From: Streptomyces caniferus
GTDB taxonomy: Bacteria > Actinomycetota > Actinomycetes > Streptomycetales > Streptomycetaceae
Reading direction: 5' to 3'
Assembly (NCBI RefSeq): GCF_009811555.1
Contig: NZ_BLIN01000002.1
Span: 930,001-994,000 of the forward strand
DNA length: 64,000 nt
Within the stretch, counting starts at the first letter, position 1; every line of letters starts with the position of its first letter. Shown in pieces: positions 40,954 through 59,703 of this stretch. Both the position numbers and the translations under genes were made by a program. The notes beneath the pieces are model-generated. The model searched no databases, had not been told where the DNA came from, and saw nothing but the letters and a program-made list of their open reading frames with translations.

Positions 40954-40965
40954 CTACGCGCGTAG
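40954..40965. promoter_or_regulatory. CTACGCGCGTAG operator upstream of the PNP gene
   Basis: A perfect 12-bp palindrome that ends 25 bases before the GTG start at 40991. Identical copies precede deoC (44825-44836) and add (59692-59703). Confidence 0.75.
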
Positions 40966-40990
40966 GGGAATACCGGCTACCCTCGTCCGC

Positions 40991-41812
40991 GTGAACGCAT
41001 CTGTTACCCCGGACATCGCGCGCGACCCGCAGGGTGCCGCCGCCGACGCCGCCGCCCGTCTGCGCGAGCTGACCGGCGCCGAAACCCACGACGTGGCCCT
41101 GGTGATGGGCTCCGGCTGGGCGCCGGCAGCCGAGGCCCTGGGCGCGCCCGAGCACGAATTTTCCGTCACCGAGCTGCCCGGCTTCCCGCCGCCGGCCGTC
41201 GCAGGACACGGCGGCACGATCCGCTCGTACCGGGTCGGCGAGAAGCGGGCGCTGGTCTTCCTGGGCCGTACGCACTACTACGAGGGCCGCGGTGTCGCCG
41301 CGGTCGCGCACGGCGTCCGTACCGCCGTCGCGGCCGGCTGCAAGACCATCGTGCTCACCAACGGGTGCGGCGGTCTGCGCGAGGGCATGCGCCCCGGCCA
41401 GCCGGTCCTCATCAGCGACCACCTCAACCTGACCGCCACCTCCCCGATCGTCGGCGCGAACTTCGTCGACCTGACGGACCTGTACTCGCCGCGGCTGCGC
41501 GCGCTGTGCAAGGAGGTCGACCCGAGCCTGGAGGAGGGCGTCTACGCCCAGTTCCCCGGCCCGCACTACGAGACCCCGGCCGAGATCAAGATGATCCGGA
41601 CGCTGGGCGCCGACCTGGTCGGGATGTCCACGGTCCTGGAGGCCATCGCGGCGCGCGAGGCCGGCGCCGAGGTGCTCGGTCTGTCGCTGGTGACGAACCT
41701 CGCCGCCGGCATGACGGGCGAGCCGCTCAACCACGAAGAGGTGCTGCAGGCCGGCCGCGACTCCGCGACCCGGATGGGCAGCCTGCTCGCCCAGGTGCTC
41801 GGCAAGCTCTGA
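40991..41812 (+). CDS. Purine-nucleoside phosphorylase
   Basis: GTG 40991 gives 273 residues, normal for the trimeric PNP family. Motifs: [12 protein letters not shown] (phosphate loop), [40 protein letters not shown] and the purine-site GMSTVLEA. It splits (deoxy)inosine or guanosine with phosphate to a purine base and (deoxy)ribose-1-phosphate. The longer frame from 40847 reaches over the operator and is unlikely. The operator CTACGCGCGTAG immediately upstream links it to deoC and add. Confidence 0.93.
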
Positions 41813-42114
41813 GGCACCCCGGCACCCCGGCGCCCCGCGCGCCGGGCCCAGCACGAGGACGGGCGACGGCCACGGCGGGTGCGTGCCACCCGCCGGGCCG
41901 TCCCGCCGCCGTCCCCACCGCACCGGCCGGGCCGCCGAACGGTCCGTCCCCACCGCGCGGCGCCGCCGTCCCCCGCACGCTGCCATCCAGCGGCATTGGC
42001 CGGTTCTGCGGCTCCCCTCATGCGCGCAATGGGTATGCGTGACGAGCCGGGAGGGGTCTCCCCCGGCAGCCGTCCCAGCGCGCCCCCACCCGCATCCACC
42101 GTCAGGAGCATCAC
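41813..42114. other. Gap between PNP and phosphosugar mutase genes
   Basis: 302 bp. CGGCGGGT (41873-41880) and ACCCGCCG (41888-41895) form an 8-bp hairpin that may end the PNP transcript. No CTACGCGCGTAG site occurs here. The last 120 bp before GTG 42115 are somewhat less G+C rich and may hold the mutase promoter. No gene is seen. Confidence 0.5.
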
Positions 42115-43797
42115 GTGGCTACCGATCCCGCGGAGCTGATCAACCGGGCCCAGGCATGGCTGGCCGAGGACCCCGACCCGGAGACCCGGGAAGAGCTGTC
42201 CAAGCTCATCGCGGCCGAGGAGACCGACGAGCTGGCCGCCCGGTTCGCCGGCACCCTCCAGTTCGGCACCGCCGGGCTGCGCGGGGAGCTGGGCGCGGGC
42301 CCGATGCGGATGAACCGCTCCGTGGTCATCCGGGCGGCGGCCGGTCTCGCCGGGTACCTCAAGGCGCAGGGCGACGGCGCGGGGCTGGTCGTCATCGGCT
42401 ACGACGCCCGCCACAAGAGCGCCGACTTCGCCCGCGACACGGCGGCCGTGATGGTCGGCGCCGGCCTGCGCGCCGCGGTGCTGCCGCGCCCGCTGCCCAC
42501 CCCGGTCCTGGCCTTCGCGATCCGGCATCTGGGCGCGGTGGCCGGGGTCGAGGTCACCGCCAGCCACAACCCGCCGCGCGACAACGGCTACAAGGTCTAC
42601 CTGGGCGACGGTTCGCAGATCGTGCCGCCCGCGGACGGCGAGATCGCCGACCAGATCGCCGCGGTCGGCCCGCTGGCCGGCGTACCGCGCCCGGAGGCCG
42701 GCTGGGAGACCCTCGACGAGGCCGTCCTGAACGCCTACCTGGCGCGTACGGACGCGGTGCTGACGCCAGGCTCGCCCCGGGACACGAAGGTCGTCTACAC
42801 GCCGATGCACGGCGTCGGCCGGGACACCCTCGTCGCCGCCTTCGCCCGCGCCGGATTCCCGGCCCCGACCGTCGTCGCGGAGCAGGCCGAGCCCGACCCG
42901 GACTTCCCCACGGTCGCCTTCCCCAACCCGGAGGAGCCGGGCGCGATGGACCTCGCGTTCGCCACCGCCCGCGCGCAGGGCGCTTCCGGCGTCGACATCG
43001 TGATCGCCAACGACCCCGACGCGGACCGCTGCGCCGTCGCCGTCCCCGACCCCGCCGCGCCGGACGGCTGGCGGATGCTGCGCGGCGACGAGGTCGGCGC
43101 CCTGCTCGCCTCCCACCTGGTGAGCAAGCGCGCGACCGGCACCTTCGCGACGACCATCGTCTCGTCCCAGCTGATGTCCCGTATCGCGGCCGGCGCGTCG
43201 CTCCCGTACGAGGAGACGCTGACCGGCTTCAAGTGGCTGGCGCGGGTGGACGGCCTGCGGTACGCCTTCGAGGAGGCGCTCGGCTACTGCGTCGACCCGG
43301 AGGGCGTGCGCGACAAGGACGGCATCACCGCGGCCCTGCTGATCACCGAGCTGGCCGCCGAGCTCAAGCAGGCCGGGCGCACCCTCACCGACCTGCTCGA
43401 CGACCTGGCGCTGGAATGCGGGCTGCACGCCACCGACCAGCTCTCGGTCCGGGTCGAGGACCTGTCGCTGATCGCCGATGCGATGCGCAGGCTGCGCGAG
43501 CAGCCGCCGACCGTGCTGGCGGGCCTGGCCGTGACCCGGGCCGACGACCTGAACCGGGGCACGGAGACGCTGCCGCCGACCGACGGTCTGCGCTACTACC
43601 TCTCCGGCTCGCCGGAGGCCGGCATCGAGGCCGCCCGCGTGGTGGTCCGTCCCAGCGGCACCGAGCCGAAGCTCAAGTGCTACCTGGAGGTCGTGGTCCC
43701 GGTGGCCGCCGCCGAGGCGCTGCCCGGGGCCCGGACGAAGGCGGCCGCGACGCTGGCCGCCCTGAAGCGTGATCTGGCGGCCGCGGCCGGGATCTGA
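42115..43797 (+). CDS. Phospho-sugar mutase (phosphomannomutase/phosphoglucomutase family)
   Basis: GTG 42115 gives 560 residues with AGGAG 7 bases upstream. The phosphoserine loop is TASHNPPRDNGYK with Ser150. The metal loop NDPDADR has Asp299, Asp301 and Asp303. The sugar loop around GDEVGALLA and the phosphate loop RPSGTEPKLKCYLE are intact. The 560-residue length and its place between PNP and deoC resemble the mutases that act as phosphopentomutase in other bacteria, so conversion of (deoxy)ribose-1-P to the 5-P is a reasonable proposal next to a hexose-phosphate role. Confidence 0.9.
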   Translation: MATDPAELINRAQAWLAEDPDPETREELSKLIAAEETDELAARFAGTLQFGTAGLRGELGAGPMRMNRSVVIRAAAGLAGYLKAQGDGAGLVVIGYDARHKSADFARDTAAVMVGAGLRAAVLPRPLPTPVLAFAIRHLGAVAGVEVTASHNPPRDNGYKVYLGDGSQIVPPADGEIADQIAAVGPLAGVPRPEAGWETLDEAVLNAYLARTDAVLTPGSPRDTKVVYTPMHGVGRDTLVAAFARAGFPAPTVVAEQAEPDPDFPTVAFPNPEEPGAMDLAFATARAQGASGVDIVIANDPDADRCAVAVPDPAAPDGWRMLRGDEVGALLASHLVSKRATGTFATTIVSSQLMSRIAAGASLPYEETLTGFKWLARVDGLRYAFEEALGYCVDPEGVRDKDGITAALLITELAAELKQAGRTLTDLLDDLALECGLHATDQLSVRVEDLSLIADAMRRLREQPPTVLAGLAVTRADDLNRGTETLPPTDGLRYYLSGSPEAGIEAARVVVRPSGTEPKLKCYLEVVVPVAAAEALPGARTKAAATLAALKRDLAAAAGI

Positions 43798-44007
43798 GAG
43801 GCCGGGTGACGGGGCGCCGGCGGCGCCCCGGCCGGCGGGCCGGGTGGCACCGGTCCGTCGGCACCTGCCGGTCGGCCTCCGCCGGCCGACACTTGCGGAC
43901 CGGCACCGGCCGGCCGTCGCCCGCCCGTCGGCAGCGACCGCCGAGGCGCACCGCGCGCCCCGAGCCGGGCCCCCGCCGCCGCAGGGTTCCCACGGCCCCG
44001 CAACGCC

Positions 44008-44643
44008 CTACAGCGCCACCATCACGGCCAGCCCGACCGCACCCACCGCCATCGGCGCGAGGATCGCGTACGACCAGCGCACCACCGGCTCGCCCTGGGC
44101 ACTCTCGCGGGCCGCGGCGCGCTCCTTGACCTCACGGAGCTCTTCGAGGGCCTGGTCGGCCACGGCCCGCGTCACCGAACCGTCCTCGCCGGCATGGGCC
44201 TGCGGTCCGAACCGGGGCCCGGATGCGGCCCCGCGCTGCGCCTGGCGACTGGCCTTCTTGCGCTGCCGCAGCGAGACCGGAATCGCCCACAGCTGGTACG
44301 TCGTGCCCGCAGCGGTGACCACCTCCGTGGAGAACGCCGCGCGCAGCGTCTCCACCGCGCTCCACGGCAGCGTGACCGTACGGAACGGATTGCGCACCGT
44401 CAGCCGGTCCTCGCCCGCCCGCACCAGCGGCCGCAGGGTGTAGGCGACCACCAGCGGCACGCCGAGGAGCAGCGCGAACACCGCCATGAGCTTGGTGTGT
44501 GCGACGCCCCGCAGCAGCGCGTCGCCGCCGAGCCAGCCGCCGAGCAGGAGGAGCAGCACGCCGCCCGCGAGGGCCGCGGGCGAGCGGTAGCTGCGCTCCG
44601 CGTACTGCTGCTGGGGCGGGGTGGACCGGTCCTGACTCGTCAT
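44008..44643 (-). CDS. PH domain-containing membrane protein
   Basis: ATG 44643 gives 211 residues. Two membrane helices (about 25-45 and 50-70), then a bacterial PH-like domain (GEDRLTVRNPFRTVTLPWSAVETLRAAFS ... TYQLWAIPVSLRQRKKASR), a charged helix, and a C-terminal membrane segment (SYAILAPMAVGAVGLAVMVA). Actinobacterial proteins of this plan are common and uncharacterised. It is divergent from deoC with about 200 bp between. Confidence 0.78.
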   Translation of the reverse strand: MTSQDRSTPPQQQYAERSYRSPAALAGGVLLLLLGGWLGGDALLRGVAHTKLMAVFALLLGVPLVVAYTLRPLVRAGEDRLTVRNPFRTVTLPWSAVETLRAAFSTEVVTAAGTTYQLWAIPVSLRQRKKASRQAQRGAASGPRFGPQAHAGEDGSVTRAVADQALEELREVKERAAARESAQGEPVVRWSYAILAPMAVGAVGLAVMVAL

Positions 44644-44824
44644 GCCGCCGATTCTGCCCGACCGTCCGGATGCCGGACATTGCGTTACGGCATCATTCGT
44701 GCGCGGGGAGGGAAGCGGCCGCGACCCGGATACGGCCGCGTCCGGCGCCCGGGACCGGGCATGTTGTCCCATCGGCGCCCTCCCACCCGGCCGGATTCGG
44801 ACGGCCGGAGGGGATGACATGGTG

Positions 44825-44836
44825 CTACGCGCGTAG
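44825..44836. promoter_or_regulatory. CTACGCGCGTAG operator upstream of deoC
   Basis: A perfect 12-bp palindrome 13 bases before GTG 44850. The adjoining TAGATATGCT could be a -10 region, so a bound protein would cover the promoter. Identical to the sites before the PNP and add genes. Confidence 0.78.
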
Positions 44837-44849
44837 ATATGCTCCCCTC

Positions 44850-45851
44850 GTGACCATGCCCATCACTGTTCCCGCATACGGCAAGGAAGCCGCGGGGCGT
44901 CTGGCGTCAATGGCGGACGTGACCGCCGACGACGGTGCGCTGCGCCGCTTCCTCCACGGCCTGCCGGGTGTCGACGCGGTCGGCCTCGAGGCCCGCGCCG
45001 CCACCCTCGGCACCCGCTCGATCAAGACGACGGCGAAGGCGTACGCCATCGACCTCGCCATCTCGATGATCGACCTGACGACCCTCGAAGGCGCGGACAC
45101 CCCGGGCAAGGTCCGGGCGCTGTGCGCCAAGGGCGTCCACCCGGACCCCACGGACCGCACCAGCCCCAAGGTCGCGGCGATCTGCGTCTACCCGGACATG
45201 GTCGCGACGGCCAAGGAGGCGCTCGGCGACTCCGGCGTCCACGTCGCGTCCGTCGCCACCGCCTTCCCGGCCGGCCGCGCCGCGCTGCCGGTCAAGCTCG
45301 CCGACACCCGTGACGCGGTCGCGGCCGGCGCCGACGAGATCGACATGGTGATCGACCGGGGCGCCTTCCTCTCCGGCCGCTACATGGACGTCTTCGAGGA
45401 GATCAAGGCCGTCAAGGAGGCGTGCGCCCGGCCCGATGGCAGCGCCGCGCACCTCAAGGTCATCTTCGAGACCGGCGAGCTCCAGACGTACGACAACGTC
45501 CGCCGGGTCTCCTGGCTCGCGATGCTCGCGGGCGCCGACTTCATCAAGACCTCGACCGGCAAGGTCGCCGTCAACGCCACCCCGCCGGTCACCCTCCTGA
45601 TGCTGGAGGCGGTCCGTGACTTCCACGCCGCGACCGGCGTCCAGGTCGGGGTGAAGCCGGCCGGCGGTATCCGTACGACCAAGGACGCGATCAAGTACCT
45701 GGTCATGGTCAACGAGACCCTCGGCGAGCCCTGGCTGACCGCCGACTGGTTCCGCTTCGGCGCCTCCAGCCTCCTCAACGACCTGCTGATGCAGCGCCAG
45801 AAGCTCAGCACCGGCCGCTACTCCGGCCCCGACTACGTCACGGTGGACTGA
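44850..45851 (+). CDS. deoC: Deoxyribose-phosphate aldolase
   Basis: GTG 44850 gives 333 residues; ATG 44856 is an alternative. It cleaves 2-deoxyribose-5-phosphate to acetaldehyde and glyceraldehyde-3-phosphate. The Schiff-base lysine is Lys233 in FIKTSTGK; supporting residues are Asp165 in DEIDMVID, Lys203 in LKVIFETGEL and Lys269 in VGVKPAGGIR. It is longer than E. coli DERA, with about 60 extra N-terminal residues, as in other actinobacteria. Aldehyde dehydrogenase genes follow after 7 bp, fitting disposal of the acetaldehyde. Confidence 0.95.
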   Translation: MTMPITVPAYGKEAAGRLASMADVTADDGALRRFLHGLPGVDAVGLEARAATLGTRSIKTTAKAYAIDLAISMIDLTTLEGADTPGKVRALCAKGVHPDPTDRTSPKVAAICVYPDMVATAKEALGDSGVHVASVATAFPAGRAALPVKLADTRDAVAAGADEIDMVIDRGAFLSGRYMDVFEEIKAVKEACARPDGSAAHLKVIFETGELQTYDNVRRVSWLAMLAGADFIKTSTGKVAVNATPPVTLLMLEAVRDFHAATGVQVGVKPAGGIRTTKDAIKYLVMVNETLGEPWLTADWFRFGASSLLNDLLMQRQKLSTGRYSGPDYVTVD

Positions 45852-45858
45852 GGCTCCC

Positions 45859-47310
45859 ATGACCTTCGATTACGCACCCGCACCCGAGTCCCGCGCGGTC
45901 GTCGACATCGCGCCGTCCTACGGCCTGTTCATCGACGGCGAGTTCGCCCCGGCCTCCGACGGCAAGGTCTTCAAGACCGTCTCCCCGTCGACCGAGGAGG
46001 TCCTCTCCGAGGTCGCCCAGGCGAGCGCGGACGATGTCGACCGCGCCGTGAAGGCGGCCCGCAAGGCCTTCGAGAAGTGGTCCGCGCTGCCCGGCGCCGA
46101 GCGCGCCAAGTACCTCTTCCGGATCGCCCGGATCATCCAGGAGCGCTCGCGCGAGCTGGCCGTGCTGGAGTCGCTCGACAACGGCAAACCGATCCGCGAG
46201 TCCCGGGACGCCGACCTGCCGCTGGTCGCCGCGCACTTCTTCTACTACGCGGGCTGGGCCGACAAGCTCGACCACGCGGGGTACGGCGCCAACCCGCGCC
46301 CCCTGGGCGTGGCCGGCCAGGTCATCCCCTGGAACTTCCCCCTCCTCATGCTCGCGTGGAAGATCGCCCCGGCACTGGCGACCGGCAACACGGTCGTACT
46401 CAAGCCCGCCGAGACGACCCCGCTCTCCGCCCTGTTCTTCGCGGACATCTGCCGCCAGGCGGGTCTGCCCAAGGGCGTCGTCAACATCCTCACGGGCGAC
46501 GGCTCCACCGGCGCCTCGCTGGTCGGGCACCCCGACGTCAACAAGGTGGCCTTCACGGGCTCCACCGAGGTCGGCAAGGCCATCGCCCGTACGGTCGCCG
46601 GCACGGACAAGAAGGTCACCCTGGAGCTCGGCGGCAAGGCGGCGAACATCGTCTTCGACGACGCGCCGCTGGACCAGGCCGTCGAGGGCATCGTCAACGG
46701 CATCTTCTTCAACCAGGGCCACGTCTGCTGCGCGGGCTCGCGCCTGCTGGTCCAGGAGTCGGTCGCCGACGAGCTGCTGGACGCGCTCAAGCGCCGGATG
46801 CGGACCCTGCGCGTGGGCGACCCGCTCGACAAGAACACCGACATCGGCGCCATCAACTCCGCCGAACAGCTGGCCCGGATCACCGCGCTGGCCGACGCGG
46901 GCGAGGCCGAGGGCGCCGAGCGCTGGTCGCCGTCCTGCGAACTCCCCTCCTCCGGCTACTGGTTCGCCCCGACGCTGTTCACCGGTGTCACCCAGGCGCA
47001 CCGCATCGCCCGTGAGGAGATCTTCGGCCCGGTGCTCTCCGTGCTGACCTTCCGCACCCCCGCGGAGGCCGTGGAGAAGGCCAACAACACCCCGTACGGC
47101 CTCTCCGCCGGCATCTGGACGGAGAAGGGCTCGCGGATGCTGTGGATGGCGAACAAGCTGCGTGCGGGCATCATCTGGTCCAACACGTTCAACAAGTTCG
47201 ACCCGGCCTCGCCCTTCGGCGGCTACAAGGAGTCGGGCTACGGCCGCGAGGGCGGCCGGCACGGTCTGGAGGCGTACCTCGCCCCGTCGAGCCCGGAGGG
47301 CGCGCGCTGA
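45859..47310 (+). CDS. Aldehyde dehydrogenase, ALDH16-like catalytic half
   Basis: A 483-residue NAD(P)-dependent aldehyde dehydrogenase with all catalytic residues: Asn159 in IPWNFP, Lys182 in VVLKPAE, Glu256 in LELGGKAANIV and nucleophile Cys290 in QGHVCCAGSR. Family C-terminal features FGGYKESGYGREGG and GLEAYL are present. It starts 7 bp after deoC, so acetaldehyde from DERA is the likely substrate. Its stop overlaps the next gene by one base (TGATG), so the two are translationally coupled and probably form one complex. Confidence 0.92.
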   Translation: MTFDYAPAPESRAVVDIAPSYGLFIDGEFAPASDGKVFKTVSPSTEEVLSEVAQASADDVDRAVKAARKAFEKWSALPGAERAKYLFRIARIIQERSRELAVLESLDNGKPIRESRDADLPLVAAHFFYYAGWADKLDHAGYGANPRPLGVAGQVIPWNFPLLMLAWKIAPALATGNTVVLKPAETTPLSALFFADICRQAGLPKGVVNILTGDGSTGASLVGHPDVNKVAFTGSTEVGKAIARTVAGTDKKVTLELGGKAANIVFDDAPLDQAVEGIVNGIFFNQGHVCCAGSRLLVQESVADELLDALKRRMRTLRVGDPLDKNTDIGAINSAEQLARITALADAGEAEGAERWSPSCELPSSGYWFAPTLFTGVTQAHRIAREEIFGPVLSVLTFRTPAEAVEKANNTPYGLSAGIWTEKGSRMLWMANKLRAGIIWSNTFNKFDPASPFGGYKESGYGREGGRHGLEAYLAPSSPEGAR

Positions 47311-48176
47311 TGAACACCGTTGACCGCTTGAGTGTGCTCAAGACCTACAAGCTGTACGTCGGGGGCAAGTTCCCCCGGTCCGAGAGCGGGCGGGTGTACG
47401 AGGTGACCGACTCCAAGGGCGCATGGCTCGCCAACGCGCCGCTGGCCTCCCGCAAGGACGCCCGGGACGCGGTGGTCGCCGCCCGTAAGGCGTTCGGCGG
47501 CTGGTCGGGCGCCACGGCCTACAACCGCGGGCAGATCCTCTACCGCGTCGCCGAGATGCTGGAGGGCCGCCGCGACCAGTTCGTCGCCGAGGTGGCCGCC
47601 GCCGAGGGCCTGTCGAAGGCGAAGGCCACGGCGCAGGTGGACGCGGCGACCGACCGCTGGGTCTGGTACGCGGGCTGGTCCGACAAGGTCGCCCAGATCG
47701 CCGGCGGCGCCAACCCGGTGGCCGGTCCGTACTTCAACCTCTCCTCCCCCGAGCCGACCGGTGTGGTCGCGGTCCTGGCCCCGCAGGACTCGTCCTTCCT
47801 CGGCCTGGTCTCGGTGATCGCCCCGGCGATCGTCACGGGCAACACGGTGGTCGTGGCGGCCGCCGAGGACGCCCCGCTGCCCGCTCTCTCCCTGGCCGAG
47901 GTGCTCGCCACCTCCGACCTCCCGGGCGGCGTGGTCAACATCCTCTCGGGCCGTACCGCGGAGCTGGGCGCCCCGCTCGCCGCCCACCAGGACGTCAACG
48001 CCCTCGACCTCGCGGGCGCCGACGAGGAGCTGGCGAAGGAGCTGGAGACGGCCGCGGCCGACAACCTCAAGCGGGTGCTCCGCCCGGGGACGGTGAACTG
48101 GACCGCCGACCCCGGAACCGGCCGCCTGCTGAGCTTCCTGGAGACGAAGACCGTGTGGCATCCGATGGGCGTTTAG
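47310..48176 (+). CDS. Truncated aldehyde dehydrogenase-like protein without catalytic residues
   Basis: A 288-residue protein, ATG overlapping the upstream stop. Residues 1-250 follow the ALDH NAD-binding half (KLYVGGKFPRSESGRVYEV, FGGWSGATAYNRGQILYRVA, LPGGVVNILSG), yet PWNFP is replaced by APQDSS, the cofactor Lys by Ala (VVVAAAEDAPL), and the catalytic Glu and Cys regions are absent. The end KTVWHPMG resembles the very C-terminus of ALDHs, so the catalytic part looks deleted from the middle. ALDH16 proteins carry just such a non-catalytic second ALDH domain; here it is a separate gene. Not a pseudogene: the frame is clean and tightly coupled. Confidence 0.87.
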   Translation: MNTVDRLSVLKTYKLYVGGKFPRSESGRVYEVTDSKGAWLANAPLASRKDARDAVVAARKAFGGWSGATAYNRGQILYRVAEMLEGRRDQFVAEVAAAEGLSKAKATAQVDAATDRWVWYAGWSDKVAQIAGGANPVAGPYFNLSSPEPTGVVAVLAPQDSSFLGLVSVIAPAIVTGNTVVVAAAEDAPLPALSLAEVLATSDLPGGVVNILSGRTAELGAPLAAHQDVNALDLAGADEELAKELETAAADNLKRVLRPGTVNWTADPGTGRLLSFLETKTVWHPMGV

Positions 48177-48237
48177 GCCTGTTCCCGGCCTGCTCTGGGC
48201 CTATTACGGCGGTCTCATGACGCGCCGTCACCAATGC

Positions 48238-48275
48238 CCGTGCGGGGTCTCGCCTGATGGCGGGGCCCCGCACGG
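48238..48275 (+). terminator. Terminator hairpin after the deoC-ALDH operon
   Basis: CCGTGCGGGG (48238-48247) pairs with CCCCGCACGG (48266-48275), with CGCC/GGCG pairing inside. It lies about 60 bases after the stop of the second ALDH gene and closes that operon before the type VII-like cassette. Confidence 0.75.
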
Positions 48276-48337
48276 CTGTCCGGTTCTTTAACTACGATTG
48301 GCTTGACAGCACGACGACAACATTTCGGGGGAGATTC

Positions 48338-48673
48338 GTGCCGGAGCAATTCAGCGCTGCCCAGGAAGCGCTGCACAAGTTCGCCAAGAGCGCCGACCAG
48401 CGGGCCGAGAAGCTGCGGGCGATCCGCAGCAAGCTCGCCTCGCACGAGCTCAGCAAGGAGGCCTTCGGGAAGCTCCCGGAGTCCGATGAGCTCTACCAGG
48501 CCTACGACGAGCAGAGCGAGCACTGCCTGGACACGCTCGACTCCGCGGCCAAGCTGGAGGAGAAGATCAGCGAGGGCGTCACGGAGACGGCGCGGGCCTA
48601 CCAGTCCGACGAGGACGCGACCGCCGCGTCGATGCGGCAGATCCACTCGGGCGGACCGGGGAGCACGCGATGA
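48338..48673 (+). CDS. Small WXG100/EspC-like type VII secretion protein
   Basis: GTG 48338 gives 111 residues with a GGGGGAG ribosome site. The predicted structure is two helices (EQFSAAQEALHKFAKSADQR and DEQSEHCLDTLDSAAKLEEK) with a helical end. Near the C-terminus Tyr88-Gln-Ser-Asp-Glu92 fits the YxxxD/E secretion signal of type VII substrates. WxG itself is missing from the turn, where FGKLPESDEL stands, as in EspC/DUF2580-like partners. It overlaps the next gene by 4 bp (ATGA), and probably pairs with its product. No EccC or other secretion-core gene is in the window. Confidence 0.72.
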   Translation: MPEQFSAAQEALHKFAKSADQRAEKLRAIRSKLASHELSKEAFGKLPESDELYQAYDEQSEHCLDTLDSAAKLEEKISEGVTETARAYQSDEDATAASMRQIHSGGPGSTR

Positions 48674-49830: not shown

Positions 49831-49861
49831 GCCGCACACCCGACGAGAGGAGCGGCACCGG

Positions 49862-51981: not shown

Positions 51982-52716
51982 GTGCCCGTGAGCTCCCACT
52001 CCCGCACCCGGCCGCCCGCCCCCGAGCCCTCGACCCCGTTCGAGCAGGGAGGCGCCCCCGTCCGGGTCATTCTGCTGACCGGCCCCTCGGGCTCCGGCAA
52101 GACGTCCCTGGCCGCACTCAGCGGCCTCCCCGCCCTCAACCTCGACGACTTCTACAAGGAGGGGACGGACCCGACGCTGCCGCAACTGCCCGACGGCGGC
52201 GGCGCCGACTGGGACGCGCCGTTGTCCTGGGACGCCTCCGCCGCGGTCGCGGCCATCGACGCCCTGTGCCGTTCGGGGCGCACCGACGTCCCGGTCTACG
52301 ACCTTTCGGCCAGCGCCCGGGTCGGCACGACGGGGCTCGACCTCGGGGGCGCCCCGCTGTTCATCGCGGAGGGCATCTTCGCCGCCGATGTCATCGCGGA
52401 CTGCCGGGCGGCGGGACTGCTGGCCGACGCGCTGTGCCTGCGCGGCCGCCCCGCCACCACCTTCCGCCGTCGGCTGGCGCGGGATCTGCGCGAGGGCCGC
52501 AAGTCCGCCCCGTATCTCGTACGCCGCGGACTGCGGCTGCTGCGCGCCGAGCGGTCGGTCGTCGCCCGGCACACCGCGCTGGGCGCGCACCCCTGCGCCA
52601 AGCCGGAGGCGCTGGCACGGATATCGGCGGCACGGACGGCGGACACGGCGGACGCGGTGCAGGCGGCGGACGCGGTGGACACGATGCAGGCGGTGGACGC
52701 GCCCGTACGCTCCTGA
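51982..52716 (+). CDS. Uridine kinase-like P-loop protein
   Basis: GTG 51982 (or GTG 51988) gives up to 244 residues. Walker A is GPSGSGKTSLAAL near residue 33, followed by LPALNLDDFYKEGTDPTLP, where the NLDDFY motif matches uridine/panthothenate kinases. VYDLSASARVG and FIAEGIFAADVI correspond to later uridine-kinase elements. It probably phosphorylates uridine/cytidine or a related small molecule. The C-terminal 35 residues are a low-complexity AADAVDTMQAVDA repeat with no expected role. Confidence 0.82.
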   Translation: MPVSSHSRTRPPAPEPSTPFEQGGAPVRVILLTGPSGSGKTSLAALSGLPALNLDDFYKEGTDPTLPQLPDGGGADWDAPLSWDASAAVAAIDALCRSGRTDVPVYDLSASARVGTTGLDLGGAPLFIAEGIFAADVIADCRAAGLLADALCLRGRPATTFRRRLARDLREGRKSAPYLVRRGLRLLRAERSVVARHTALGAHPCAKPEALARISAARTADTADAVQAADAVDTMQAVDAPVRS

Positions 52717-52767
52717 CGGGCCGGACCGCCCCGCTCCCGGCGCACACGAAGCCGTCCCGTCACACGT

Positions 52768-52816
52768 GAAGAAGCGGGCTCGGACAGACCCCCCGGCCGC
52801 CCGAACCCGCTTCTTC
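52768..52816. terminator. Terminator hairpin after the uridine kinase-like gene
   Basis: GAAGAAGCGGGCTCGG (52768-52783) pairs with CCGAACCCGCTTCTTC (52801-52816) with one mismatch, loop of 17 bases, followed by TTCC. It sits between convergent genes. A long pyrimidine-rich tract (52800-52945, with many C4-C6 runs) follows up to the sigQ stop. Confidence 0.7.
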
Positions 52817-52953
52817 TTCCCCGTGATCCCCCGTATCCCCCGATACGTCCGGCTTGTTCGGATTGCTCCGCTTCCGCCGGTTCCCCCGCATCCCCTTTTC
52901 CCCTTGCCCCCCTCGGGCGTTCCCCCTGGTCCCCCCTCGGGCTCCCCCGATCC

Positions 52954-53757
52954 TCAGGCCACCAGCTCGCCGAAGGACTCCTCCTGGTCACGGCCGAAGC
53001 TGAGGACCTCGTCCTCGCGCAGCCGGCGCAGGGCGCGCCAGATGCTGGACTTCACCGTGCCGACACTGATGTCGAGAATGTCCGCGATCTCCGGGTCCGT
53101 ACGGCCCTCGTAGTAGCGCAGCACCAGCATCGTGCGCTGCGTCTCGGGCAGCCGGACCAGCGCCTGCCACAGAACGGCGCGCAGCTCGGTGCCGCGCATC
53201 GCGTCCACGTCGCCCGCCGTCTCCGGCAGCTCCTCGGTCGGGTACTCGTTGAGCTTGCGCCGACGCCAGGCGCTGATGTGCAGATTGGTCATGGTGCGGC
53301 GCAGATAGCCGCCGAGCGCCGCCTTGTCGCTGATCCGGTCCCACGCCCGGTAGGTCGAGAACAGCGCGCTCTGCAGCAGGTCCTCGGCCTCGTAGCGGTC
53401 ACCGGTCAGGTGGTAGGCGGTGGCGTACAGGGAGGCGCGGCGCTCCTGGACGTAGGCGGTGAAGGCCGCTTCGGCCTCCGCCGTCTCCGCCGGGGAACGC
53501 CGTTCCCCCGTGGCCTCCCTGTACTCCGCTCCCCCGTTGTTTCCCCCGTGGGCGGCGTTGCCCCCGTGCCCCCCGTCCGCGTCGGCCCCGTTGACCGTGA
53601 CCGTCGTGGCATCGATGGCCACCATGTACGGCGGCCGCTGGCGTCCGATGCCGCGGGCGCATCCCCGCACGCCGGCAGCGGACTTCTCGCCGGTCCTGAC
53701 GACGTCGTGGAGCCGCGTGATAACTGCGCTGTTGGTGGTGCCGTGCAGTGTGTTCAT
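52954..53757 (-). CDS. sigQ: ECF-type RNA polymerase sigma factor (SigQ-like)
   Basis: ATG 53757 gives 267 residues; the longer frame runs through the afsQ1 promoter and is rejected. Region 2 reads YATAYHLTGDRYEAEDLLQS; region 4 reads LPETQRTMLVLRYYEGRTD then DISVGTVKSSIWRALRRL. About 95 residues before region 2 form a Gly/Asn-rich extension, unusual for an ECF sigma. It is divergent from afsQ1, the arrangement known in S. coelicolor where AfsQ1 activates sigQ. No anti-sigma gene is adjacent, so control is probably transcriptional. Confidence 0.88.
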   Translation of the reverse strand: MNTLHGTTNSAVITRLHDVVRTGEKSAAGVRGCARGIGRQRPPYMVAIDATTVTVNGADADGGHGGNAAHGGNNGGAEYREATGERRSPAETAEAEAAFTAYVQERRASLYATAYHLTGDRYEAEDLLQSALFSTYRAWDRISDKAALGGYLRRTMTNLHISAWRRRKLNEYPTEELPETAGDVDAMRGTELRAVLWQALVRLPETQRTMLVLRYYEGRTDPEIADILDISVGTVKSSIWRALRRLREDEVLSFGRDQEESFGELVA

Positions 53758-53863
53758 CTCGCGCCCCCCGTCGTAGAGCCAGCTCGTTCGGTGTGTCGGG
53801 GTGTTGATCTCTCCCGATGCCCCAAAGACTGCCAACCCAGTTTCATCGCGTTGTCCGCCGACT

Positions 53864-53879
53864 GTCACAGGCCTGTCAC
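53864..53879. promoter_or_regulatory. AfsQ1 binding site between sigQ and afsQ1
   Basis: GTCAC (53864-53868), six bases, GTCAC (53875-53879): an exact fit to the published AfsQ1 consensus GTnAC-N6-GTnAC. It lies about 105 bases upstream of both start codons in the divergent region 53758-53982. Confidence 0.82.
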
Positions 53880-53982
53880 AGGGGCCGGTGCGGCGCGTCG
53901 CGGCGGCCTCGCGGGTGCGGGGCTTGTGTACGAGAGCGCCACTGGTCGATCTCCCGGCGTCCCATGGGCCAGAATGGCCGAC

Positions 53983-54660
53983 GTGCCTTTCCTGTTGCTG
54001 ATCGAGGACGACGACGCCATCCGCACGGCCCTCGAACTCTCGCTGTCGCGCCAGGGTCACCGTGTGGTGACCGCGGCGACGGGCGAGGACGGCCTGAAGC
54101 TGCTGCGCGAGCAGCGCCCGGACCTGATCGTGCTGGATGTGATGCTGCCGGGCATCGACGGCTTCGAGGTGTGCCGGCGGATCAGGCGTACGGACCAGCT
54201 GCCCATCATCCTGCTCACGGCGCGCAACGACGACATCGACGTCGTGGTGGGCCTGGAGTCGGGCGCCGACGACTACGTCGTCAAACCGGTCCAGGGAAGG
54301 GTGCTGGACGCCCGGATCCGGGCCGTGCTGCGCCGCGGCGAGCGCGAGTCCAGCGACTCGGCGACGTTCGGCTCGCTGGTGATCGACCGGTCGGCGATGA
54401 CGGTCACCAAGAACGGCGAGGACCTGCAACTGACACCGACCGAGCTGCGGTTGCTGCTGGAGCTGAGCCGCCGGCCCGGCCAGGCGCTGTCCCGGCAGCA
54501 GTTGCTGCGGCTGGTGTGGGAGCACGACTACCTCGGCGACTCGCGCCTGGTGGACGCCTGTGTCCAGCGGCTGCGCGCGAAGGTGGAGGACGTGCCCTCC
54601 TCACCGACCCTGATCCGTACGGTCCGGGGCGTCGGCTACCGGCTGGACTCGCCGCAGTGA
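53983..54660 (+). CDS. afsQ1: Response regulator AfsQ1 (OmpR family)
   Basis: GTG 53983 gives 225 residues, the length known for AfsQ1; ATG 53974 would add three. The receiver domain has the acidic pocket EDDD, Asp52 in LIVLDVMLPG, Thr and Lys switch residues in ILLTARND and VVKP. The winged-helix domain includes LQLTPTELRLLLELSRRPGQ and RLRAKVEDVPSS with the final RGVGYRLD. It works with AfsQ2 to respond to nitrogen/carbon imbalance and to regulate antibiotic genes and sigQ. It overlaps the kinase gene by 4 bp. Confidence 0.93.
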   Translation: MPFLLLIEDDDAIRTALELSLSRQGHRVVTAATGEDGLKLLREQRPDLIVLDVMLPGIDGFEVCRRIRRTDQLPIILLTARNDDIDVVVGLESGADDYVVKPVQGRVLDARIRAVLRRGERESSDSATFGSLVIDRSAMTVTKNGEDLQLTPTELRLLLELSRRPGQALSRQQLLRLVWEHDYLGDSRLVDACVQRLRAKVEDVPSSPTLIRTVRGVGYRLDSPQ

Positions 54661-56432
54661 GGGAGCGTTCCACGGACGGCGCGACGACGGACGACGGTGC
54701 GGACGACGAGGCCGGGGCCGGCGCGCCCGTGGCCGGGCGGCGGGTGCTGCGGTTGCTGGGGCGTCCGTCGGGGCTGCTGCGCTGGACGAGTCTGCGGCTC
54801 CGGCTGGTCGTGGTCTTCGCGCTGGTGGCGCTGACCGCCGCGGTCTCCGCCTCGGGCATCGCGTACTGGCTCAACCGCAACACCGTTCTGGACCGCACGC
54901 AGAACGCCGTCCTCAAGGACTTCCGCAAGGCGCTGGAGGACAGTACGCGGTCGCTGCCGCTGCGTCCGCGGTGCGCCGAACTCCAGGATGCCGCCCGGCA
55001 GATGGCGGGCGGGCCGCAGAACTACGCGGTACTGCTGATAGGCGTGGACCGCGAGGGCAAGGACTGCGCCGCCACCACGGACAAGGACCTGCTGACGCTC
55101 AAGAACGTGCCCGTGCCGCTGCGCAACGCGGTCAACGAGGTGCGTCCGGTCGACGAGGCCAACCAGTACTCCCACCATCTCTACTGGCAGCGCAAACAGG
55201 TCGAGGACACCCCCTACCTCGTCGCCGGGGCGAAGGTGATCGGCGGCGGGCCCACCGGCTACATGATGAAGTCGCTCGCCACCGAGCGGCAGGACCTCAA
55301 CTCGCTGGCCTGGTCGCTGGGTATCGCGACGGCGCTCGCCCTGGTCGGCTCGGCGCTGCTGGCGCAGGCCGCGGCGACGACGGTGCTGCGGCCCGTACAG
55401 CGGCTGGGGCATGCGGCGCGGCAGCTCGGCGAGGGCCGCCTGGACACCCGGCTGCGGGTGACCGGCACGGATGAACTCGCCGATCTCTCCCGGACGTTCA
55501 ACCGGACGGCGGAGCGTCTGGAGCAGCGGGTCGAAGAACTGAGCGGGCGCGAGGCGGCGTCCCGGCGGTTCGTCGCAGACATGTCGCACGAGCTGCGGAC
55601 GCCGCTGACCGCGATCACCGCCGTCTCGGAGGTGCTGGAGGAGGAGGCCGACTCCCTCGACCCGATGATCGCGCCGGCGGTGCAACTGGTGGTCAGCGAG
55701 ACCCGGCGGCTGAACGACCTCGTGGAGAACCTGATGGAGGTCACCCGCTTCGACGCGGGCACGGCCCGTCTCGTGCTGGACGATGTCGACGTCGCGGACC
55801 AGGTGACCGCCTGTATCGACGCCCGGGCCTGGCTGGATGCGGTCGAGCTCGACGCGGACCGCGGCATCGTGGTCCGGCTGGACCCGCGGCGGCTCGATGT
55901 GATCCTGGCGAATCTGATCGGCAACGCCCTCAAGCACGGTGGCTCGCCGGTGCGGGTCTCGGTGCGCACGGAAGGCGCCGCGGGCGACGGCGAGGGCGGC
56001 AGGACGGGCAGCACGGCGGTCTCCGGTGGCGGCGCGGACGGGGCCGAGGCGGCCGGCGGACCGGCGGCCGGTGCGGGGGACGGCGGACCGGAGCGGGCCG
56101 GACGGACCGCGGACGAGGTGCGGTCCGGGAGCGGGCAACTGGTGATCCGCGTACGGGACCACGGCCCCGGCATCCCGGAGGAGGTCCTCCCGCACGTCTT
56201 CGACCGCTTCTACAAGGCGAGCGCCTCCCGGCCGCGGTCGGAGGGCAGCGGTCTGGGCCTGTCGATCGCCATGGAGAACGCACACATCCACGGCGGGGAG
56301 ATCACCGCGGCCAACCTCCCCGAGGGCGGCGCGGTCTTCACCCTGCGGCTGCCGATGGACGCCTCCCCGCTGACGGACGGCGACCGGCAGGACGACGGCA
56401 CGGCCGACGAGGGCACGGAGGGCGGGCGATGA
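54657..56432 (+). CDS. afsQ2: Sensor histidine kinase AfsQ2
   Basis: GTG 54657 gives 591 residues. Two membrane helices (48-71 and 217-240) flank an extracellular sensor domain of about 145 residues. HAMP follows (241-295); the phosphoacceptor is His311 in DMSHELRTPL. The ATPase domain has the N box NLIGNALKHG (419-428) and G boxes DHGPGIPEE and GSGLGLSIA. Between the N and G1 boxes lies an extra Gly/Ala/Glu-rich insertion of about 55 residues (439-493), making this protein longer than the 535 residues I recall for S. coelicolor AfsQ2. Confidence 0.9.
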   Translation: MRERSTDGATTDDGADDEAGAGAPVAGRRVLRLLGRPSGLLRWTSLRLRLVVVFALVALTAAVSASGIAYWLNRNTVLDRTQNAVLKDFRKALEDSTRSLPLRPRCAELQDAARQMAGGPQNYAVLLIGVDREGKDCAATTDKDLLTLKNVPVPLRNAVNEVRPVDEANQYSHHLYWQRKQVEDTPYLVAGAKVIGGGPTGYMMKSLATERQDLNSLAWSLGIATALALVGSALLAQAAATTVLRPVQRLGHAARQLGEGRLDTRLRVTGTDELADLSRTFNRTAERLEQRVEELSGREAASRRFVADMSHELRTPLTAITAVSEVLEEEADSLDPMIAPAVQLVVSETRRLNDLVENLMEVTRFDAGTARLVLDDVDVADQVTACIDARAWLDAVELDADRGIVVRLDPRRLDVILANLIGNALKHGGSPVRVSVRTEGAAGDGEGGRTGSTAVSGGGADGAEAAGGPAAGAGDGGPERAGRTADEVRSGSGQLVIRVRDHGPGIPEEVLPHVFDRFYKASASRPRSEGSGLGLSIAMENAHIHGGEITAANLPEGGAVFTLRLPMDASPLTDGDRQDDGTADEGTEGGR

Positions 56433-57043
56433 CGCCGAGCAGGCGGACAGGACGGCGCACCGCCGCCGTGGTGGTGCTCGCGCTCGCCGCCGCGGGCTGC
56501 GGAATCCGGGGCACGTCCGTCCCCGTCGACGCGGGCGGCGCGCCCTCCCGGGTCAGCTGCAAGGCTCCGACGTCGCGACCGAGTCCGTCCGGCGAGAACT
56601 CCACGACGAGTGTGTACCTGGTGTGCGGCTCGGCGCTGGCCCAGGTCGAGCGGCCGGTACCCCCGTCCAAGGCCACCGATCCACGGCTGCCGACCGCCCG
56701 TGCGCTGCTGCACGAGCTGCAGCACAAGCCGTCCGCCGACGAGGAGAAGGCCGGTTTCAGCAGCGCGCTTCCCCAGGACCTGAAGGTCTCGGGGCCCCGC
56801 ACGGGCGACCCCGCGGATGCGCTGCGGCTGAGCATGCGGCCGGATGATCTGCCGTCGTTCGCCCTGGCGCAGCTGGTGTGCACCTACGGCGCCAGCACGG
56901 CGCTGGGCCGCACCCATGCGGCGGTGCTGGGCGGTCCGGGCGACGATACGGCGCACCGCTACGACTGCTCCGCGGATGTGCTGGCCAATCCGGACATCGC
57001 GGAGAACGCCGGGTGGGGTGACCCGTTGTCGGAAGAGGGGTGA
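56429..57043 (+). CDS. Lipoprotein of the afsQ operon (GerMN-like)
   Basis: A 204-residue protein overlapping afsQ2 by 4 bp (ATGA). The leader TAAVVVLALAAAGCGIRG is a lipoprotein signal with Cys24. The mature part has a sequence pattern (VYLVCGSALAQVERPVP, ALLHELQHKPSADEEKAG, SALPQDLKV) like the GerMN domain of actinobacterial lipoproteins beside sensor kinases. In S. coelicolor the corresponding product has been called AfsQ3 in some work; a role in tuning AfsQ2 sensing is plausible but not shown by sequence. Confidence 0.82.
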   Translation: MTPSRRTGRRTAAVVVLALAAAGCGIRGTSVPVDAGGAPSRVSCKAPTSRPSPSGENSTTSVYLVCGSALAQVERPVPPSKATDPRLPTARALLHELQHKPSADEEKAGFSSALPQDLKVSGPRTGDPADALRLSMRPDDLPSFALAQLVCTYGASTALGRTHAAVLGGPGDDTAHRYDCSADVLANPDIAENAGWGDPLSEEG

Positions 57044-57687
57044 ATCGGGGGCCACGACGGGGCCTGTGGGACGGACCAAGACGGGCGCAACTGGGCGGAA
57101 CCGCAGCCCCCACTCCCCGCGTCCTGGCCTGTGTGCAGCCTCATGGCCCCGGCACCACCGCCGCCCCCCGTATGCGCGTCACCGGACTTCTCCTCCTCGT
57201 GGCGCATCTGTCGACAGTCGGCTGGCTGACACTGCGTCCCCGTACGGTGCCGTGGGTGCCCGCCGCGAACCTCGAACCGCTGGCCACGATCCGCGCCGAG
57301 CTGGCGCACGGCCCGTCGTGGGAGGTCGTACAGCATCTGGGCGGCTCGATCCTGCTGCTGGCGCCCCTCGGGGTACTGCTGCCGCTCTCGGCGGGCCGCC
57401 TGAACGTTTCGCCCCTGGTGTCCCTGACCCGTACCGCCTTCGCCGGAGCGATGATCGCGCTGGCCATCGAGCTGCTGCAGTCCGGGGTCCCCGGCCGGGT
57501 CCCGGACGTCGACTCGGTGCTGCTCGGCACCCTCGGGGTGGCCGTGGTGCACCTGGCGGTCGTCCCCCGGGCCCGCCGCCGGCTCCGTCGCAGGTACGGG
57601 GATCTCGGGGCTGCGACCCCGACAATCCCCAGGGGTGGACTGGCCCTGCAGGCTGATGCTCTCTCCGGCAGCCGGACCTACCTTTGA
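57040..57687 (+). CDS. VanZ-like family membrane protein
   Basis: GTG 57040 overlaps the upstream stop and gives 215 residues; ATG 57172 (MRVTGLLLL) would give 171 and removes a non-hydrophobic leader, so the start is open. Four hydrophobic segments follow. The VanZ core is LEPLATIRAEL, VQHLGGSILLLAPLGVLLPL and AIELLQSGVPGRVPDVDSVLLGTLG; the ELLQ...R..D.DD-type motif is recognisable. The family includes the teicoplanin-resistance VanZ but most members have no known function. It appears to be the last gene of the afsQ operon. Confidence 0.82.
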   Translation: MNRGPRRGLWDGPRRAQLGGTAAPTPRVLACVQPHGPGTTAAPRMRVTGLLLLVAHLSTVGWLTLRPRTVPWVPAANLEPLATIRAELAHGPSWEVVQHLGGSILLLAPLGVLLPLSAGRLNVSPLVSLTRTAFAGAMIALAIELLQSGVPGRVPDVDSVLLGTLGVAVVHLAVVPRARRRLRRRYGDLGAATPTIPRGGLALQADALSGSRTYL

Positions 57688-57732
57688 GACATCGGGGCAG
57701 CCGCCCCGCAGAGTCGAAAAGGAGTCGTTCTC

Positions 57733-57942
57733 ATGGCCGCCGCACTGGTCCGCCCCCGCAACAACCGAATGATCGCCGGAGTGTGCGCGGGCCTGGCCCG
57801 TCGCTTCGGTACGACCCCGGCGACGATGCGCGTGCTCTTCGTGGTGTCGTGTCTGCTCCCCGGCCCGCAGTTCCTCGTCTACCTGGCGCTGTGGATATTC
57901 CTCCCCTCGGAGGAGAAGGCCACCGGCGCCGCCGCCTGGTGA
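57733..57942 (+). CDS. PspC domain protein
   Basis: A 69-residue protein with AAAAGGAG upstream. The PspC signature is intact: LVRPRNNRMIAGVCAGLARR, then FGTTPATMRVLFVVSCL and a membrane helix (LVYLALWIFLPSEE). PspC-type proteins sit in the membrane and in some bacteria take part in envelope stress sensing. Here it is a free-standing small PspC, as is frequent in actinobacteria. The strong hairpin at 58025-58061 follows it. Confidence 0.9.
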   Translation: MAAALVRPRNNRMIAGVCAGLARRFGTTPATMRVLFVVSCLLPGPQFLVYLALWIFLPSEEKATGAAAW

Positions 57943-58024
57943 CCCTCCCGGCCGGCCGCCCGGCGCGCGCCGCCGATCCGGCGCTCCGCCGTCCCGCGGT
58001 CCGCTCCCCCGGCCGCACATGACG

Positions 58025-58061
58025 GTGCCCCGGCCGTACGCGAGGCGTACGGCCGGGGCAC
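58025..58061. terminator. Bidirectional terminator hairpin
   Basis: A perfect 17-bp stem (58025-58041 with 58045-58061) closed by GAG. It lies between the PspC gene and the convergent small secreted protein gene. Confidence 0.82.
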
Positions 58062-58102
58062 GGCGCGGCGCCCGTCCCCCGCGGGACGGGCCGCGTCCGG
58101 TG

Positions 58103-58372
58103 TCAGCCGCCGAGGAGGCTGCCGGGCTGCAGGCCGCCGAGCAGCTTGTTGCCCTGGGACTTGACCTTGGTCTTGACGTCCTGGCCGGCCGGCTTGGCCT
58201 TGGTGAGGCCGGAGACGGTCTTGGCGGCGTCCTTCACCGGCAGGCTCTTCAGCACCCCGGTGGTGTCGGAGCTGCCGACGACCGGCGCCGCGCTGGCGAC
58301 GCCCGCGGCGGTGACGACGAAAGCGGCACCGAGCGCGACGGTACCGAGAGTCTTGATGGTTCCCTGCTTCAT
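58103..58372 (-). CDS. Small secreted protein
   Basis: An 89-residue protein. The signal peptide is clear (TLGTVALGAAFVVTAAGVAS then AAPVV, cleavage near residue 29). The mature part is basic and Lys/Gly-rich (KDAAKTVSGLTKAKPAGQDV) ending GGLQPGSLLGG. It has no cysteine and no known domain. Comparable tiny exported proteins are common in Streptomyces. The sequence resembles the 51431-51832 product in general style (both have VVGSS/GALVN-like, Gly-Leu rich mature parts), but I would not call them homologous. Confidence 0.78.
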   Translation of the reverse strand: MKQGTIKTLGTVALGAAFVVTAAGVASAAPVVGSSDTTGVLKSLPVKDAAKTVSGLTKAKPAGQDVKTKVKSQGNKLLGGLQPGSLLGG

Positions 58373-58454
58373 CGAATTACGTCCTCGTGATGGGGGCTTG
58401 ACCGGCCAATCAACCTAGTGATGCGGCAACCGGCGCCGCAAACAGCCACGAGGA

Positions 58455-58490
58455 AAGAAAAAACGGCCGGTGGACATTCCACCGGCCGTT
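58455..58490 (-). terminator. Rho-independent terminator of add
   Basis: A 13-bp perfect stem (58462-58474 with 58478-58490) and a 3-base loop. Read on the minus strand it is followed by TTTTTTCTTTCC, a proper T-run. It lies just past the add stop. Confidence 0.92.
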
Positions 58491-58514
58491 GCGCTATAAG
58501 CTCGCGCCGTCTCC

Positions 58515-59675
58515 TTACACAGAGTCAGAAGACCTGTTGACAGGGGCAGTTGTACCCTGCGGACGGAACAGCCATTCGGCCCGCAGTTCCGCGTAACCGG
58601 GCTTGATGACGTCATTGATCATGGCCAGACGTTCATCGAAAGGAATGAACGCTGATTTCATCGCATTGACTGTAAACCACTGCATGTCATCGAGCGTGTA
58701 TCGAAATGTCTTGACCAGGTGCTCGAATTCCCGGGACATGTTCGTGCCGCTCATCAGCCGGTTGTCGGTGTTGACCGTGAGCCGGAACTGCAGTCGGCGC
58801 AGCAGGCCGATGGGGTGCTCCGCGTAGGAGGGCGCGGCGCCGGTCTGCAGGTTGGAGGTCGGGCACATCTCCAGCGGGATGCGCTTGTCCCGTACGTACG
58901 AGGCGAGCCGGCCGAGCTTGACCGAGCCGTCGTCGGCGACCTCGATGTCGTCGATGATCCGGACGCCGTGGCCGAGGCGGTCGGCGCCGCACCACTGCAG
59001 GGCCTGCCAGATGGACGGCAGTCCGAAGGCCTCACCGGCGTGGATGGTGAAGTGGTTGTTCTCCCGCTTGAGGTACTCGAACGCGTCGAGGTGGCGGGTG
59101 GGCGGGTAGCCGGCCTCCGCGCCCGCGATGTCGAAGCCGACGACGCCGGTGTCGCGGTAGCGGTTGGCGAGTTCGGCGATCTCCAGGGCGCGGGCGGCGT
59201 GCCGCATCGCGGTCAGCAGGGCACCGACCCGGATGCGGTGACCGTTCTCCCGGGCCCGCCGCTCGCCCTCGCGGAACCCCTCGTTGACGGCCTCGACGAC
59301 CTCTTCGAGGGTCAGCCCCTGCTCGAGGTGCTGCTCGGGCGCGTACCGGACCTCGGCATAGACGACACCGTCCGCGGCGAGGTCCTCGGCGCACTCGGCG
59401 GCCACCCGGGCCAGTGCGTCGCGGGTCTGCATGACGGCGCAGGTGTGCGCGAAGGTCTCCAGGTACCGCTCGAGCGAGCCGGAGTCGGCGGCCTCACGGA
59501 ACCAGATCCCAAGCTTTTCCGGGTCGGTTTCGGGCAGTCCCTCGTAGCCGTTCTCGCGGGCCAGCTCGACGACGGTGGCGGGGCGCAGGCCGCCGTCGAG
59601 GTGATCGTGGAGCAGCACCTTGGGGGCGCGGAGGATCTGTTCACTGGTCGGCAGTGTGGTGGTCTCGCTCGTCAT
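58515..59675 (-). CDS. add: Adenosine deaminase
   Basis: A 386-residue protein converting (deoxy)adenosine to (deoxy)inosine. Zinc ligands begin with His23-x-His25 in [27 protein letters not shown] holds the catalytic Glu region, GHGVRIIDD the next His, and SNLQTGAAP the last Asp-side motif typical of the family. The start ATG 59675 is 16 bases downstream of the CTACGCGCGTAG palindrome. Its product inosine is the substrate of PNP, linking it to 40991-41812. It ends at a strong terminator and is monocistronic. Confidence 0.95.
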
Positions 59676-59691
59676 CTCGGCACTCTAGCCC

Positions 59692-59703
59692 CTACGCGCG
59701 TAG
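59692..59703. promoter_or_regulatory. CTACGCGCGTAG operator upstream of add
   Basis: A perfect 12-bp palindrome, 16 bases before the add ATG on the minus strand. It also lies about 75 bases before the start of the divergent hydrolase-fold gene. Third copy of the same sequence in the window. Confidence 0.78.

Follow-up and report, generated by a model that had tools for sequence, protein, structure and literature searches.

A stretch of 64,000 nucleotides of the Streptomyces caniferus genome (contig NZ_BLIN01000002.1, positions 930,001 to 994,000; referred to as the window) holds three exact copies of the palindrome CTACGCGCGTAG, located upstream of the genes for purine nucleoside phosphorylase (PNP), deoxyribose-phosphate aldolase (deoC) and adenosine deaminase (add). 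The copies, which are predicted to be operators, span 40954-40965, 44825-44836 and 59692-59703, respectively. PNP (40991-41812, plus strand) scored 336.3 bits against TIGR01698 (cut-off 302.6), deoC (44850-45851, plus strand) scored 179.6 bits against TIGR00126 (cut-off 117.3) when tested on 44910-45851, and add (58515-59675, minus strand) scored 644.5 bits against NF006847 (cut-off 412) and was above the cut-off of TIGR01430 as well. The sites lie 25 nt ahead of the PNP start (GTG 40991), 13 nt ahead of the deoC start (GTG 44850, picked by frame and spacing) and 16 nt ahead of the add start (ATG 59675, minus strand). The initial annotation of this DNA had described three identical palindromes 13-25 bases ahead of start codons, with no further exact copy in the window, and both the search of the window and the measured distances confirmed this description. 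Its remark that the palindrome occurs on both strands says little, given that CTACGCGCGTAG is its own reverse complement, although the directions of the genes do differ.

Exact copies of CTACGCGCGTAG were expected by chance 0.0015-0.0026 times per 64 kb and 0.2-0.4 times per genome, based on Markov models of order 1-4 with the three sites masked. When up to two mismatches were allowed, the window contained two more places, each with two mismatches, at 22271 and 54571; the resulting five places compare with 4.0 in shuffles, and it is therefore the exact matches alone that rise above the background in the window. The whole genome (9,147,309 bases) has four exact copies, the fourth of which (C3:994867) is within the coding sequence of a 721-codon open reading frame (ORF) and was taken as chance.

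All 121 genomes of the genus surveyed, S. caniferus included, have two to six exact copies, for a total of 460 compared to 64 for the pattern read backwards. At least one exact copy was present in 100 of 101 genomes in a sample of the family (22 from the same genus and 79 from other genera). The exception, G417, has CTACTCGCGTAG 13 nt ahead of deoC and a two-mismatch site ahead of PNP. Outside the family, an exact copy was detected in only 10 of 265 genomes in a sample of the class; none of the nine outside-family sites examined, from seven genomes (G208, G254 and G333 left out), is at a reference target gene, and three of these sites, from G191, were additionally inspected gene by gene.

We classed 335 distinct contexts of exact sites, a non-random sample in that 80 loci (the named loci) were selected through deoC and further sites were deliberately looked for. 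Strains are also shared between these loci and the sampled genomes (a contig of 8,270,461 bases, for example, is present in both), such that counts from the two are not independent. Most contexts (317/335) are at PNP, deoC, add, a nucleoside ABC transporter or other recurrent targets, mostly nucleic-acid or purine genes. The best represented are PNP (103), deoC (99), add (59, including those at a second add paralogue that 10 genomes carry) and the transporter ATPase (29), followed by purN (11), a gene for a secreted Ig-domain protein (9), and the genes for a 5´-nucleotidase (2), PurS (2), a Cof-type HAD phosphatase (2) and an ExeM-like nuclease (1). The purN sites are 206-282 bp upstream, in the gap separating a divergent gene pair, which leaves their target uncertain. 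The 18 contexts without an assigned target comprise the nine outside the family, two at contig ends (L043, L167) and seven within the family. Random scatter across the genome, which the initial annotation had named as an outcome that would speak against a shared regulon, was not seen in this sample; the exact site is found far above chance at functionally related promoters, as for a conserved operator regulon.

Among the 79 named loci with readable DNA upstream of deoC, the deoC site is exact in 76 and has one mismatch in three. An exact copy also lies 2-9 kb upstream of deoC in 57 named loci, and 50 of these 57 keep the PNP layout, in which the site is followed by 12 nt, TAnn(C/G)T, 6 or 7 nt, and GTG. 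In the first relatives inspected, PNP, deoC and add each have the site upstream, and a fourth one separates the gene for a PnrA/Bmp-type lipoprotein from that for the ABC ATPase of a transporter cluster, which in the S. caniferus genome extends to a cytidine deaminase gene. The exact site was found for the transporter ATPase in 12 of 13 rows compared, and 16 of the 18 rows for the Bmp lipoprotein have CTACGCGCGTTA, with the remaining two cut off or mis-extrapolated.

Several less common contexts also were noted. In the second adenosine deaminase gene of 10 genomes (loci L060, L144, L145, L146, L182, L184, L194, L197, L198 and L219), the exact site covers codons 3-7 counted from the predicted start, in several cases as ATGACCGCTACGCGCGTAG, and the predicted operator is thus also coding sequence. 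The gene for the secreted Ig-domain protein, termed a hydrolase in some records, has the exact site at its promoter (L153-L158, L169, L193 and L205; g118, from Kitasatospora, and G011). At L199, from G063, exact sites at 2413 and 2736 are 323 bp apart, and the second leads into another deoC promoter and start in the opposite orientation; this pair is a partial inverted duplication. For the Cof-type HAD phosphatase gene (PF08282), the exact site precedes the called start by 136 bp in two genomes (L059 and L195), making it a possible further member of the regulon.

Near-copies of the site extend the gene set beyond nucleoside catabolism. Places with at most one mismatch show no excess in the genome (24 compared to 40 for the reversed pattern), so conservation must decide which near-copies matter. 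All 20 one-mismatch places in the genome were inspected; eight are at purine or nucleic-acid genes, namely NCS1, NCS2, two 5´-nucleotidase-type genes, an ExeM-like nuclease, a GmrSD_C-domain protein, an acid phosphatase and purS, and the other 12 look like chance. One of these, in L006 (near 1501-1545), is flanked by a MarR gene, 178 bp away, and by a gene for a GH25 lysozyme; it is probably a chance match because, by eye, a second palindrome-like stretch (TGGCATGGCCATACCA) lies beside it.

Of the eight genes, purS, NCS2 and the nucleotidase of L009 were tested for conservation. At purS(QL), 29 of 30 genomes of the genus have a site with one mismatch and one has a site with two mismatches. The mismatch takes five forms (CTACCCGCGTAG, CTACTCGCGTAG, CTACGCGAGTAG, CGACGCGCGTAG and CTATGCGCGTAG), and the exact CTACGCGCGTAG is found at purS in two further genomes (L196, L220). 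Since the mismatch varies while its number stays at one, the sequences suggest selection for a weaker site at purS. For the NCS2-type purine permease, one mismatch again was found in 29 of 30 genomes, 26 of which have CTACGCGCGGAG; the 30th match, with 63% identity and four mismatches, probably is a paralogue. The secreted 5´-nucleotidase has a one-mismatch site in 29 of 29 cases, CTACGCGCGTTG in 27 and CTACGCGCGTCG in two, with one of the 30 genomes searched having no match at the threshold. In addition, the ExeM/NucH-like nuclease has the exact site in G113 (L190) and a one-mismatch site in the S. caniferus genome (L015); the two proteins share 55% identity over 573 residues, and both match ExeM_NucH_DNase below the cut-off. 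As controls, 400 random stretches of the window of each of two lengths, 650 and 430 nt, gave no case in which the best site had one mismatch; exact matches were found in 10 and 8 stretches, respectively, for which the three known copies are the only possible source. Among 2000 stretches of 420 nt from loci that each have one near-site, 45 had a one-mismatch site.

Thus, site conservation at orthologous promoters, which the initial annotation had proposed to check, is found for deoC, purS, NCS2 and the 5´-nucleotidase gene, and with the absence of random scatter it favors the shared repressor that the annotation had offered as the simplest explanation. The idea of a single-pathway regulon needs to be revised. 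While the identities of PNP, deoC and add hold at curated cut-offs, nucleoside catabolism is too narrow a description, given that purSQL, purine-base uptake and a secreted nucleotidase are included. The pur genes seen with sites are purS and purN, and the purSQL site would bring purine synthesis under the same element, as for a regulon of the E. coli PurR type.

The promoters themselves bear on how the element might act. By eye, the deoC region reads CTACGCGCGTAG-A-TATGCT-6 nt-GTG (apparent -10 hexamer at 44838-44843, plus strand), the add region reads site-4 nt-TAGAGT-6 nt-ATG (59682-59687, minus strand) and the PNP region reads site-12 nt-TACCCT-7 nt-GTG (40978-40983, plus strand, with the layout kept in relatives). 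The 76 exact deoC sites of the named loci are followed by ATATGCT in 72 cases and ATATGGT in four. All three promoters look leaderless, with the palindrome upstream of the apparent -10 and so presumably outside the RNA. This position argues against an RNA hairpin, which a perfect palindrome near start codons might otherwise bring to mind. The same symmetry could denote a chromosome-structure or methylation mark, for which genome-wide occurrence would be expected rather than two to six copies in each genome at a single class of genes; we regard a hairpin or such a mark as the least probable account of the element.

The distance between the site and the apparent -10, again judged by eye, varies from 1 nt for deoC to 4 nt for add and 12 nt for PNP, and is longer for NCS2. 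The sites are nonetheless located about the core promoter or, for the second add gene, across codons 3-7. This variable spacing within the core promoter, together with the position in the second add gene, fits steric occlusion and does not fit activation from a fixed geometry. An activator bound to the palindrome is improbable, given also that deoC and add and, by eye, the 5´-nucleotidase and Bmp genes have the site immediately next to the apparent -10 or overlapping it, although the NCS2 site, which appears to lie just upstream of the -35, is in a place open to an activator as well.

From the observed sites, their conservation and the genes that they mark, we infer that a protein binds and represses at these promoters in response to an effector, and that CTACGCGCGTAG is probably the operator of one dedicated repressor of purine supply. 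The repressor, probably a homodimer with one subunit on each CTACGC half-site, would sit on the core promoter and thereby block RNA polymerase. Its predicted regulon would provide purines by way of the secreted nucleotidase (and probably the nuclease), the nucleoside ABC transporter, the purine-base permease, adenosine deaminase, PNP and deoC, with purSQL joining through the weaker site. These genes would be shut when purines are plentiful, and the repressor would release when purines are short or when nucleosides or DNA are on offer. Because synthesis and scavenging appear to be jointly controlled, the signal would be the purine state rather than one nucleoside. The genes that follow PNP and deoC encode a phosphoglucomutase/phosphomannomutase family protein and an aldehyde dehydrogenase, respectively, and these operons therefore could handle pentose phosphate and acetaldehyde as well.

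Several observations, in addition to the position of the NCS2 site, weigh against a dedicated repressor operator. The promoter elements and leaderless starts were judged by eye, one-mismatch places are not in excess in the genome, and seven exact sites within the family (L004, L111, L150, L191, L192, L200 and L202) have no recognised target. Among functionally related genes, the ABC ATPase gene of the S. caniferus genome lacks the site, cdd has it in none of 11 rows and deoA has it, with up to two mismatches, in only four of 11 rows. Finally, no cognate regulator was found.

One candidate for this regulator, which the initial annotation had pointed to, is the DeoR-type protein encoded at 37524-38507 on the minus strand. 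It has HTH_DeoR and DeoRC sensor domains, and as the repressor it would sense a pentose phosphate, whether deoxyribose-5-phosphate, ribose phosphate or phosphoribosyl pyrophosphate (PRPP). A distant relative of solved structure (7l6l, E 3.5e-7) bears the name deoxyribose operon repressor, and an orthologue with 76-100% identity and nearly invariant first 60 residues was present in all 16 family genomes tested, with none found in G191, the single outgroup. The gene was found in 43 of the 80 named loci, each time with PNP 2.2-3.4 kb away; PNP is contained in 57 named loci, and many loci end too soon. This candidate is thus linked to the targets, as for regulation by the DeoR family, but synteny within one family is weak evidence, and the protein falls below the cut-off of every NCBIfam equivalog, DeoR included. 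G417, which lacks exact sites, retains the orthologue. The DeoR-type promoter is strongly conserved in the 16 orthologues yet shows another element and no palindrome, even if a self-site is no strict requirement, and control of the DeoR-type gene by the palindrome was rejected on this basis. The conserved DNA upstream of the gene (38508-38600, minus strand) is centered around CTGAAAGCAGACGGTC, which is perhaps the operator of the DeoR-type gene itself. Overall, the linkage of this protein with PNP stands, the palindrome is absent from its own promoter, and we consider it a candidate that is unlikely to be the repressor.

A regulator of another family, either LacI or related to BlaI/MecI/CopY, is possible though doubtful. 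E. coli PurR and CytR, both LacI family proteins, carry out these functions. Among 20 LacI-type loci of G113, control of a LacI gene by the palindrome was not recognised: a match with at most two mismatches occurs at just two of the loci, within the LacI ORF at one and within a neighbouring gene at the other, and no near-copy was found in the available upstream DNA, which is incomplete in at least four (L323, L330, L335 and L336), though a regulator need not control itself. The operators of BlaI, MecI and CopY proteins are TACA/TGTA boxes with the core TACANNTGTA (PMC7253601). Their TAC-N4-GTA spacing is the same as that of TAC-GCGC-GTA in the palindrome. The likeness is limited to this frame. 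The A..T of the CopY box, whose 10 bases are reported to be necessary but not sufficient, is absent in CTACGCGCGTAG, such that the core TACANNTGTA is not matched (compare TACGCGCGTA), and the targets described there are copper or beta-lactam genes (PMC7253601). Other regulator candidates are encoded beside NCS2 where, by eye, a MarR-like gene and an MFS gene are neighbours in L369, L374, L377, L384 and L390, and a short gene for a ribbon-helix-helix-like protein also is present in L369, L384 and L390.

WhiB7-type sites are AT-rich stretches, which counts against the action of WblC (WhiB7) at these promoters, a highly improbable explanation. SCO4914 and guaB2 appear among the promoters repressed by WblC in a chromatin immunoprecipitation (ChIP) study (PMC7157823), and SCO4914, the deoC of S. 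coelicolor, is deoxyribose-phosphate aldolase (PMC3293853). However, the passage on WblC is silent on PNP, add and the palindrome (PMC7157823), and such a listing does not account for the palindrome.

The remaining genes between deoC and add include, at 52954-56432, a sigma factor, an OmpR-type response regulator and a histidine kinase by Pfam, whose order and position resemble those of sigQ-afsQ1-afsQ2.

In its overall logic, the predicted system resembles the PurR regulons of E. coli and Bacillus subtilis and the CytR/DeoR systems at once, with another operator. E. coli PurR is a LacI family protein for which one operator connects genes of purine synthesis to those of purine salvage and uptake, and here too one operator would tie synthesis to salvage and uptake. 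The operators differ (CTACGCGCGTAG compared to ACGCAAACGTTTGCGT), and the site described here, unlike that of PurR, is common to genes for a nucleotidase, a nucleoside transporter, adenosine deaminase, PNP and deoC. E. coli CytR and DeoR similarly govern deoC along with genes for a nucleoside phosphorylase, a deaminase and nucleoside uptake; there, two regulators act through other operators and without the purine synthesis genes. The PurR repressor of B. subtilis, which binds PRPP, controls purine synthesis and purine transporters together, as predicted here, but from another operator. Within Streptomyces, the TetR family protein XdhR likewise is a purine-salvage repressor; the part of the report concerned describes it for xdhABC and the act genes with a response to ppGpp, names no other purine regulator and gives no link to these promoters (PMC6627660). 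A search of the open-licence literature, with subscription papers and regulon databases outside its scope, returned no description of the motif or the regulon; papers containing the palindrome string or its core bear titles on other subjects. S. coelicolor is reported to contain more of three nucleases and of the adenosine deaminase SCO4901 than S. lividans (PMC7244524), which is compatible with co-regulation but is no test of it.

Together, these data raise a broader possibility, which we take seriously while holding it short of probable, that purine supply in the Streptomycetaceae is governed by a master repressor particular to the family, one of a type with no purine role elsewhere. A single operator with affinities tuned promoter by promoter would couple the scavenging of DNA and nucleosides, deoxyribose use and de novo purine synthesis, with a perfect site at the catabolic genes, fixed one-sided variants at the uptake and nucleotidase genes, and nearly always one changing mismatch at purSQL. 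An exact 12-bp predicted operator found across the family offers a ready bait for the regulator, along with a list of targets, and a way to approach purine flow in antibiotic producers. For uncharacterised genes that carry the site, such as that for the secreted Ig-domain protein of Kitasatospora, it hints at a function as well. Development and antibiotic production in Streptomyces are reported to depend on GTP-derived signals (PMC6627660). If the proposal is true, a master repressor would determine how a mycelium reuses DNA from those of its cells that have lysed, and would supply the GTP pool underlying (p)ppGpp and c-di-GMP.

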